Shown here piece by piece: positions 24,151 to 25,175 of a DNA stretch of 55,460 bases. The position numbers were made by a program, and so were the translations under genes. The first letter of the stretch is position 1; each line of letters begins with the position of its first letter. Origin of the DNA: Bacteroidetes bacterium 24-39-8 (GTDB taxonomy: Bacteria; Bacteroidota; Bacteroidia; Chitinophagales; Chitinophagaceae); NCBI GenBank assembly GCA_002256765.1, contig NCHJ01000004.1:34377-89836 (forward strand). The letters are read 5' to 3'. The notes beneath the pieces are model-generated. The model searched no databases, was not told the origin of the DNA, and worked only from the letters and a program-made list of their open reading frames with translations.

Positions 24151-24165
24151 AATGGCGTTGAAGTT

Positions 24166-24177
24166 GCAATCGATTGC
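24166..24177. promoter_or_regulatory. GCAATCGNTTGC operator, copy A
   Basis: GCAATCGATTGC is a perfect 12-base palindrome; with the flanking T and A it is a 14-base palindrome (24165-24178). A central CG within inverted GCAA/TTGC halves is the style of LacI-family operators. It lies 16 bases upstream of the amylase start. Its centre is 30 bases from that of copy B. Confidence 0.55.
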
Positions 24178-24195
24178 ATATTCAAAAAGATAACA

Positions 24196-24207
24196 GCAAT
24201 CGTTTGC
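24196..24207. promoter_or_regulatory. GCAATCGNTTGC operator, copy B
   Basis: GCAATCGTTTGC differs from copy A at one base. It lies 30 bases from copy A centre to centre, about three helical turns, so the two could be bound cooperatively. Confidence 0.5.
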
Positions 24208-24212
24208 GTTAT

Positions 24213-24235
24213 TAATGTGTGAAATTAACACATTA
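24213..24235. promoter_or_regulatory. TGTGT-N7-ACACA operator, copy 1
   Basis: TAATGTGT and ACACATTA form a perfect 8-base inverted repeat with spacer GAAATTA. It is the first of three similar sites around the Nudix-type regulator gene. It lies 63 bases upstream of the amylase start. Confidence 0.6.
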
Positions 24236-24241
24236 TTGCAA

Positions 24242-24264
24242 AGTTGTGTATTTTTTACACATAA
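24242..24264. promoter_or_regulatory. TGTGT-N7-ACACA operator, copy 2
   Basis: TGTGTA and TACACA form a perfect inverted repeat with spacer TTTTT (core 24245-24261). It has the same 17-base core length as copy 1. Centre-to-centre distance to copy 1 is 29 bases. Confidence 0.6.
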
Positions 24265-24348
24265 AAAAATTAATATTTTTTGTCAGGGTCAATTGCAGCG
24301 TTTTTGGAGAAAAATGGTCTTTAAGAGTCCATTTTGGGTCAAAAACAG

Positions 24349-25086
24349 CTAGAAATCAATTCCAATCCACTTTCTTTTGCTCTTTTCGTACTTCTCAAAA
24401 TTGAATTTGTACAATTTGCCCGGCCTATGTGGTACGTCTTGTTCCATCTCATCAATGTCAATGAGTAGGTCCATGGAGGCAAATTTCTTTCTGAAATTCC
24501 TTCTGTCCAGACTTACCGCCAAAATGGCCTCATAAAGGTTCTGCAATTCTCTCAAAGAGAACTTTTCAGGCAATAAATTGAAGCCAAGAGGGTGTTCCTG
24601 GATCCTTTTTTGCAACCAACTATAGCATTGGTCCACAATTTCTTTGTGGTCAAAAGCCATATCGCCCAGCGTAGGCATACTATGCCAATTCAAATCATTG
24701 TCATGAATTTTCAGCTGGTGGTGGTTAATATTTAACAAGGAACAATAAGCCACGGTAATAACCCTTCCACCTGGGTGGCGGTTGGGATGGCTAAAGGTTC
24801 TAACCTGGTCTAAGAACACATCATTCATACCAGTTCGTTCTTTCAGGATCCGGTAAGCGGCTTCATCCAATTCCTCATTGTCTTTGACAATATCTCCCAA
24901 TAAAGAATAATGATTTTGATAGTATTCCAAGTCACTTTTAATGACCAAGACTTTTAGTTTGTTCTCTTCAAATCCAAAAATGACACAATCCACCGTTAGT
25001 GGAACGCTGGGATAGGCTTGTACCAAGGCTTTTGCGTCCTTGATCAAATGCTCTTCGTGAGCTGCTACTGTAAGATGCTTTTTCAT
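24349..25086 (-). CDS. Nudix-domain transcriptional regulator (NrtR/AraR type)
   Basis: The product is 245 residues. The Nudix fold spans about 28-165 and a winged-helix domain about 170-240 (LREL-QNLYEAILAVSLDRRNFRKKF, then RPGKLYKFNFEKYEK), the NrtR architecture. The Nudix box at 64-87 reads GDIVKDNEELDEAAYR then ILKERTGM. The catalytic RExxEExG pattern is RIxxERxG, so hydrolase activity is unlikely and ligand sensing more likely. In Bacteroides a protein of this family (AraR) senses a sugar. Lying just upstream of the amylase and sus genes, it is a good candidate regulator of starch use. Matching palindromes flank it on both sides, suggesting autoregulation. Confidence 0.85.
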   Translation of the reverse strand: MKKHLTVAAHEEHLIKDAKALVQAYPSVPLTVDCVIFGFEENKLKVLVIKSDLEYYQNHYSLLGDIVKDNEELDEAAYRILKERTGMNDVFLDQVRTFSHPNRHPGGRVITVAYCSLLNINHHQLKIHDNDLNWHSMPTLGDMAFDHKEIVDQCYSWLQKRIQEHPLGFNLLPEKFSLRELQNLYEAILAVSLDRRNFRKKFASMDLLIDIDEMEQDVPHRPGKLYKFNFEKYEKSKRKWIGIDF

Positions 25087-25119
25087 GGCTTTAATTTTGA
25101 AAAAAACCAGGGGCTTTTT

Positions 25120-25131
25120 GCAATCGGTTGC
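25120..25131. promoter_or_regulatory. GCAATCGNTTGC operator, copy C
   Basis: GCAATCGGTTGC sits 34 bases upstream of the Nudix regulator start, in the gap to ligA. It differs from copy A at one base. Including the flanking T and G it reads TGCAATCGGTTGCG. Confidence 0.5.
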
Positions 25132-25152
25132 GGAAGGTACAATTTTTTGGAA

Positions 25153-25175
25153 TAATGTGTAAATTCTACATAGTA
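25153..25175. promoter_or_regulatory. TGTGT-N7-ACACA operator, copy 3
   Basis: TAATGTGT is identical to the left half of copy 1. The right half (TACATA in place of TACACA) is one base off. It lies in the divergent gap between the Nudix regulator (start 25086) and ligA (start 25227), so it could serve regulator autoregulation or, less likely, ligA. Confidence 0.5.

Follow-up and report, generated by a model that had tools for sequence, protein, structure and literature searches.

Gene content and sites of the starch locus

The window, the whole stretch of 55,460 nucleotides analysed from Bacteroidetes bacterium 24-39-8, contains a starch locus with an adjacent regulator gene. The regulator (24349..25086, minus strand; 245 amino acids) joins a Nudix-like domain to a winged helix-turn-helix and is placed in the NrtR/AraR family by Pfam, the PDB and an AlphaFold model. 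The neighbouring gene codes for a GH13 alpha-amylase-like enzyme with a CBM48-like region and a type IX secretion tail (21253..24150, minus strand; open reading frame list and Pfam) and is the putative first target. The ATG at 24150 was chosen as its start; the mechanically called frame begins further out, at 24231. A susC-type TonB-dependent transporter (18141..21137), a susD-type lipoprotein (16522..18105) and a susE-type outer membrane protein (15660..16487), all recognized with Pfam, lie further along the minus strand, together with a second susE-type protein in a susF-like place (14232..15620), which has a CBM20-like match below the cut-off. On its other side, the regulator is divergent from ligA, read by eye as an NAD-dependent ligase; a NAD(P)H-hydrate dehydratase-like gene lies 3 kb off. 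None of the genes adjoining the regulator in the window is one for arabinose. The names araBDA-type, kdgK/eda-type, sulfatase, ligA and those of the NAD genes were given by eye, without Pfam.

Both gaps beside the regulator hold two classes of palindromes, which have no strand; the preliminary description had reported this arrangement, and a motif scan found it again. Class 1, TGTGTN7ACACA, is a predicted operator with two exact copies on the amylase side, TGTGTATTTTTTACACA (24245..24261) far from the amylase and TGTGTGAAATTAACACA (24216..24232) near it. A third copy, TGTGTAAATTCTACATA (25156..25172), has one mismatch, lies in the divergent gap between regulator and ligA and is a putative site of autoregulation. 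Copies had been reported at 24213, 24242 and 25153; they are present, each three bases further on. The second class, GCAATCGNTTGC, has exact copies at 24166..24177 and 24196..24207 (the latter GCAATCGTTTGC) and, on the ligA side, at 25120..25131, precisely where they had been noted. The amylase-side pairs are spaced as described, by 29 bases in class 1 and by 30 bases in the GCAATCGNTTGC class.

Family and fold of the regulator

Pfam matches of the regulator are NrtR_WHD (9.2e-26), AraR_C and NUDIX, and the domain order of the NrtR family, a Nudix-like domain followed by the NrtR winged helix, is present. Comparison with the PDB yielded AraR of B. thetaiotaomicron (5bs6, E 2.5e-50), to which the identity is 37-38%. 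The AlphaFold model (pLDDT 82, pTM 0.81) has AraR 5bs6 as best fold match, followed by the NrtR of Shewanella. Family and fold are also common to the NAD-type NrtR of Shewanella (3gz5) and NadQ of Agrobacterium (7q91), at identities of 27-29% to full-length NrtR and 14-18% to NadQ. Family and fold are thus supported by comparison. The stretch corresponding to the Nudix signature REUXEEXGU is broken and reads RILKERTGM; according to the available excerpts on AraR, the signature is broken there too (PMC4666351). Four residues of the AraR recognition helix (R180, N181, R183 and K184) are kept, and K179 is replaced by R195. In AraR, the contacts of this helix define GTGT, as far as the excerpts describe them (PMC4666351).

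Three NrtR-type genes are present in the genome, one in the window and one each on contigs C203 and C41. The C203 gene adjoins araBDA-type genes and scores higher against AraR than the window regulator (218 versus 174.5 bits). In a tree of 64 proteins, the orthologues of the window regulator form one group (41 rows, support 100/99), while AraR of B. thetaiotaomicron and the C203 protein stand in a separate group (100/99). Genes located mostly beside nicotinamide phosphoribosyltransferase-like genes form another group (97/79), with the window regulator outside. The regulator as the AraR of this genome was rejected, because C203 is closer to AraR, the clades are separate and the araBDA-type cluster has its own paralogue. 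As judged from sequence, the regulator is a member of the NrtR family and a paralogue distinct from AraR.

A local orthologue of AraR or XylR with a pentose effector, for which starch control would be secondary, would share the fold and the identity to AraR. The pocket retains Arg86 and His131, which contact arabinose in AraR, as well as F129. Against this reading, the arabinose contact Arg34 is replaced by Ser51, Gly48 by Asp65 and Phe49 by Ile66. Across 39 orthologues, R84, R103 and H147 do not vary at all, and S51 and D65 hardly do. The recognised neighbours are ligA, amylase, sus and yicC (read without a specific search for pentose genes), and the araBDA-side paralogue and the separate clade also speak against a pentose regulator, which is very improbable. 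Elsewhere among the relatives, L436 (1486-2664) codes for a fusion in which a 4HBT thioesterase domain, confirmed with Pfam, is joined to an NrtR-like regulator; L442 (1486-2670) resembles it in length and N-terminal sequence.

Conservation of the class-1 sites

The two amylase-side copies are the only exact matches to TGTGTN7ACACA in the 55-kb window. At up to two mismatches, class 1 is not enriched in the window (21 observed, 27.7 expected). The core GTGTAN5TACAY matches four times at three places, one place being counted on both strands, versus 0.19 matches expected, and none of 100 shuffles reaches this count; one place, at 40424, lies outside the regulator locus. The strongest evidence for the class-1 sites, in the sequences compared, is their conservation and not the counts in the window.

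The locus was compared among the best 80 of 166 relatives. In 76 of the 80 loci, ligA is divergent from the regulator and at most 500 bases away. The gene after the regulator is an amylase in 19 loci, yicC in 41, and another gene or none recognised in 20. All 19 gaps towards an amylase contain an exact TGTGTN7ACACA, although the 19 loci include near-copies (L063/L064 and L132/L136 are nearly alike) and are not independent. The exact site occurs in none of the 41 yicC gaps, several of which are short (46 bases in three), and in one of the remaining 20. Shuffled regulator-amylase gaps hold a mean of 0.015 exact sites. The search for the motif in related genomes, suggested earlier, thus found class 1 kept at the orthologous positions in every amylase locus of this set. 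In an alignment of the window with L064-L072 (ten close sequences), 20 of 20 columns of the operator arms are invariant, compared with 35 of 140 columns outside the operators. A CTTTG that lies between the class-1 copies is also conserved in the alignment and resembles part of the Bacteroidota -7 element. Tandem copies are mostly 24-31 bases apart, and 38-54 bases in G052, G085, G111 and G079.

A class-1 site with at most one mismatch was present in 19 of the 76 regulator-ligA gaps. This frequency lends comparative support to the proposed control of the regulator over its own gene; autoregulation as a universal property was rejected on the same count.

The test was widened to Chitinophagaceae, in which genomes with a regulator match of at least 55% identity were taken as REG+ and genomes with weaker matches only as REG-. 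The regulator was present in 62 of 98 genomes. An amylase was found in 51 of the 62 REG+ genomes and in 7 of the 36 REG- genomes (Fisher 1e-9; tallied by hand). Within 300 bases of the amylase, 38 of 47 REG+ loci had a class-1 site at up to one mismatch, versus 2 of 8 REG- loci (Fisher 0.003); the shuffle control gave 0.43 for the first 35 REG+ promoters. The 47 loci represent 47 of the 51 REG+ genomes with one locus each (G037, G038, G045 and G050 were left out), and the eight REG- loci represent seven genomes, including G089, whose amylase runs to the contig end where the regulator would lie. Among 20 extra amylase loci, 18 were positioned from earlier search coordinates and not from tblastn matches. 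Nine of the 47 REG+ promoters had no class-1 site; no site at up to one mismatch preceded the amylase of G044 and G100, for example. The inferred amylase starts are 7-181 bases downstream of these sites. Amylases located away from the regulator still have class-1 sites. More distant members show the order amylase-regulator-susCDEF (G049, G023) or regulator-susC-susD (G050, G073), and G049, G023 and G018 have class-1 sites before both amylase and susC. Across the amylase gap, L155, L156 and L157 have a gene for an MFS transporter, confirmed with Pfam in L156. The proposed control of amylase/sus by the regulator gains comparative support from the exact sites in the close loci and from the amylase promoters across the family. 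Conservation of the sites, their co-occurrence with the regulator and their common targets are likewise supported by comparison.

The TGTGT palindromes might be bound by another factor, either Crp-like or a NAD-type NrtR, to which the Nudix regulator would be incidental. NAD-type NrtR paralogues of other genomes do lie beside TGYGTA-like sites, and a putative Crp-like site is marked near the AraR sites in the part of the AraR paper available (PMC4666351). On the other hand, the three NrtR-type genes of this genome are the one in the window, the araBDA-side one and one that overlaps TGTGTC-N5-GACACA. The sites track the presence of the regulator in either gene order with the amylase, and the GTGT core is common to the pfkA-side relatives described below, all of which leaves an incidental regulator very improbable. 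As a separate observation, the NrtR paralogues in L366, L373 and L447 lie near nicotinamide phosphoribosyltransferase-like genes (by eye) and have TGYGTA-like sites close to class 1.

The second palindrome class

The pattern GCAAWCGNTTGC is taken here to be a LacI-type palindrome, and GCAATCGNTTGC is probably an operator of the LacI family. With two mismatches allowed, this class shows no clear enrichment in the window (21 versus 15.2 expected). Exact GCAATCGNTTGC is found at six places in the 3.4 Mb genome, three of them in the window, and the reversed control gave 0. The copy at 24196 is conserved, with 11 of 12 columns invariant in the ten close sequences. The copy at 24166 has 0 of 12 invariant columns and is conserved in the nearest relatives only, and the ligA-side copy at 25120 recurs in L063 and L064 only. 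A conserved pair of LacI-type sites was rejected on these grounds, so that one member of the pair proposed earlier stands.

Nine LacI genes are present in the genome. The one on contig C139 is divergent from a susCD operon, and the gap between them contains GCAAACGTTTGC and a one-mismatch class-1 site. Relatives of the C139-type LacI lie directly beside the regulator in seven loci, divergent from susC, with GCAAACGWTTGC between. The coupling of the GCAATCGNTTGC class to LacI is thus seen outside the window, on another contig of the genome and in relatives. In Chitinophagaceae, 8 of the 47 REG+ amylase loci have a LacI-type site at the promoter. A second input through the other site class, postulated from the window, agrees with the fixed place of this site in the close clade and with its presence in part of the family-wide promoters. 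A LacI protein probably provides the second input, in part of the family only, since the C139-type gene and site are coupled and the amylase promoters with a site are few; the identity of the LacI protein is one that we infer.

The GCAATCGNTTGC sites may instead be those of a different LacI paralogue, or of more than one, the second input then not being specific for starch. The number of LacI genes in the genome would fit, and the same exact pattern occurs at genes read as kdgK/eda-type and sulfatase. The recurrent coupling of the C139-type gene with the pattern beside the regulator speaks against the broader assignment, which is rather doubtful. One locus, L049 (1670-11081), combines a LacI gene, susCD, a large FG-GAP/ASPIC-UnbV protein and both operator classes; a similar set adjoins the regulator in several relatives.

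pfkA and other proposed targets

A class-1 site at up to one mismatch is present at the pfkA promoter in 19 of 58 REG+ genomes versus 3 of 32 REG- genomes (Fisher 0.02), with 0.7 and 0.25 in the respective shuffles; the promoter lacks such a site in the other 39 REG+ genomes. The scan comprised 90 of 93 matching genomes (left out were G039 and G069, with a cut gene, and G103). G000 was not counted despite its site, its pfkA being cut by the contig end. Two of the three REG- genomes with a pfkA site, G089 and G110, account for both amylase sites of the REG- group as well, so the regulator may have been overlooked in them.

The exact consensus TGTGTAN5TACACA occurs 26 times in 15 genomes, versus 3 times in the reversed control; these genomes were picked for having the regulator, eight of them for the amylase locus. 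Nine of the 26 sites are at the regulator locus. Fourteen of the other 17 lie beside carbohydrate or glycolysis genes (amylase and pfkA four each, PEP carboxykinase two, and fba, a phosphorylase-like gene, glgC/MFS and susC one each), and three are unexplained. Three regulator-bearing Sediminibacterium genomes have no exact consensus site. In two genomes (L161 and L149), an FAD-linked oxidase gene is divergent from that for PEP carboxykinase, as confirmed with Pfam in L161, and the gap between them has an exact consensus site, a hint that the regulon may include gluconeogenesis.

The genome of the window has nine exact palindromic sites, five of which are at starch or glycolysis genes. Outside the window, exact sites precede a second GH13 gene, a class II aldolase and a contig-cut pfkA. 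Two of the other four fit TGTGTC-N5-GACACA (C41 and C122), and two are unexplained (C34 and C153). At up to one mismatch, 82 sites were counted versus 50 in the reversed control, so most of them arise by chance; the one-mismatch sites at the enolase gene and at the C113 susC are among these 82. The aldolase gene fba as a core target was rejected, as only 2 of the best 30 of 53 aldolase genes have a site, both in the same genus as the window. The third NrtR paralogue, on C41 (L038, 9288-10145), overlaps TGTGTCATAACGACACA with the 5' end of its mechanically called frame (site 10128). The variant TGTGTC-N5-GACACA also precedes the C122 gene (L040, site 5811), GH3-type by eye, and possibly represents a separate specificity.

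The circuit proposed from the window comprised amylase/sus and the regulator gene. This part stands; the scope appears wider, with pfkA and further genes outside the window. That this regulator acts through these sites, with amylase/sus and pfkA as targets, is the core of the proposal and is highly probable from the comparison; the mode of action, the effector and the LacI parts are less sure.

A possible wider branch in Bacteroidia

Among 80 Bacteroidia genomes, the identity to the regulator outside Chitinophagaceae is 47% at most. A regulator-like gene adjoins pfkA in four distant genomes (G160, G114, G173 and G151). Each of these four loci of 3.6-3.7 kb contains a single GTGTN7ACAC, located in the regulator-pfkA gap; none was found in 500 sets of shuffled gaps, a test that is not blind, because the class-1 pattern was relaxed by one outer base per side after the gaps had been read. 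Three of the four regulators fall in one group in the tree (98/98) and the fourth branches separately; the larger group joining them to the window clade is weak (87/76). One genome, G080, has two copies of the regulator (L349, 10767-11471, and L324), one beside an amylase with sites and the other about 5.5 kb from pfkA, with no adjacent site at up to one mismatch.

These loci suggest, with a chance somewhat short of even, an NrtR branch across Bacteroidia that would act as a general switch of glycolysis (pfkA), with a Nudix pocket re-purposed for sensing a hexose or its phosphate. The window regulator would be the Chitinophagaceae form, which would have taken on starch capture as well; aldolase, PEP carboxykinase and glycogen genes would have been added in some genomes of that family.

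Proposed effector and mode of action

Arg84 occupies the position of the phosphate-contacting Lys76 of Shewanella NrtR, so a phosphorylated ligand, either a hexose phosphate or NAD-linked, is a fair guess. The NAD-linked option was retained because ligA is adjacent and the dehydratase-like gene is near. The core could stand as proposed with a NAD-linked signal, such as ADP-ribose or similar, in place of a sugar; these neighbours and the invariance of Arg84 in the orthologues would be in line with it. The contact made by NrtR Arg41 and AraR Arg34, however, is Ser51 in the regulator, and the sites were found at carbon genes (in a scan that left out NAD promoters), which makes a NAD-linked signal distinctly unlikely.

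The regulator is taken to be a repressor released by its ligand, by analogy with AraR, which ligand releases from DNA according to the excerpts available (PMC4666351). An activator, binding in its ligand-bound form and helping the polymerase, is unlikely. It would be compatible with the distances of the amylase sites from the inferred starts, which are open to activators, and with the same site at glycolytic and gluconeogenic genes; AraR, by contrast, leaves the DNA on ligand binding, and at the four pfkA-side loci only about 13-31 bases separate the site from the pfkA start as called mechanically. Repression is therefore the mode retained here, and we infer binding and the effector along with it.

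In the proposed mechanism, the regulator would be a repressor of the NrtR family and bind, as a dimer, to the 17-bp palindrome TGTGTA-N5-TACACA. It would act at the amylase-sus promoter through the tandem sites, at its own promoter and, elsewhere, at pfkA and a small number of further carbon genes. Binding of a sugar signal from within the cell to the catalytically dead Nudix domain would release the dimer, whereupon starch capture and glycolysis would rise together. A LacI-family repressor, most likely encoded on C139, would add a second check via GCAAWCGNTTGC beside the tandem sites.

Relation to known regulators

AraR (BT0354) of B. thetaiotaomicron is, from the excerpts available, similar in fold, domain order, recognition helix, GTGT core, tandem sites, SusCD-type targets and broken Nudix signature, but has arabinose targets, whereas the regulator described here belongs to a separate clade with changed sugar-pocket residues and with starch and glycolysis targets (PMC4666351). 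XylR (BT0791), likewise an NrtR-family sugar regulator of Bacteroidota, is described for xylose and was compared by description only (PMC4666351, PMC3878776, both in part). NAD-type NrtR differs in the contact replaced by Ser51, though Arg84 is at the Lys76 position. SusR of Bacteroides likewise regulates starch sus genes but is described, in the part of the source available, as a membrane activator with direct-repeat sites (PMC3878776), in contrast to the Nudix and winged-helix protein with palindromes found here.

In the literature available in part, Bacteroidota are described as controlling their use of sugars via SusR, hybrid two-component systems, sigma/anti-sigma pairs and a few sugar repressors. 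Arabinose and xylose, both in Bacteroides, were the only sugars for which NrtR-type regulators were found there (PMC4666351, PMC3878776; excerpts of open-licence literature). No account of a starch locus with a Nudix regulator was found in open-licence literature, in agreement with the preliminary description, which knew of none. The same literature yielded none for control of the glycolytic core in Bacteroidota. Cra and CggR each tie one regulator to glycolysis genes by a sugar-phosphate signal. The regulator would work like these two, which belong to other protein families.

The best reading of the sequences compared is an NrtR-family repressor that would tie starch uptake to glycolysis, with a clade-specific LacI input. 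Within the known NrtR family, the earlier ties of which were to NAD and pentose sugars, it represents a new branch with a new regulon. A regulator joining the outer-membrane starch system with phosphofructokinase is a candidate for a Cra/CggR-like role and, if true, may represent a new class of NrtR ligand beside ADP-ribose and arabinose.
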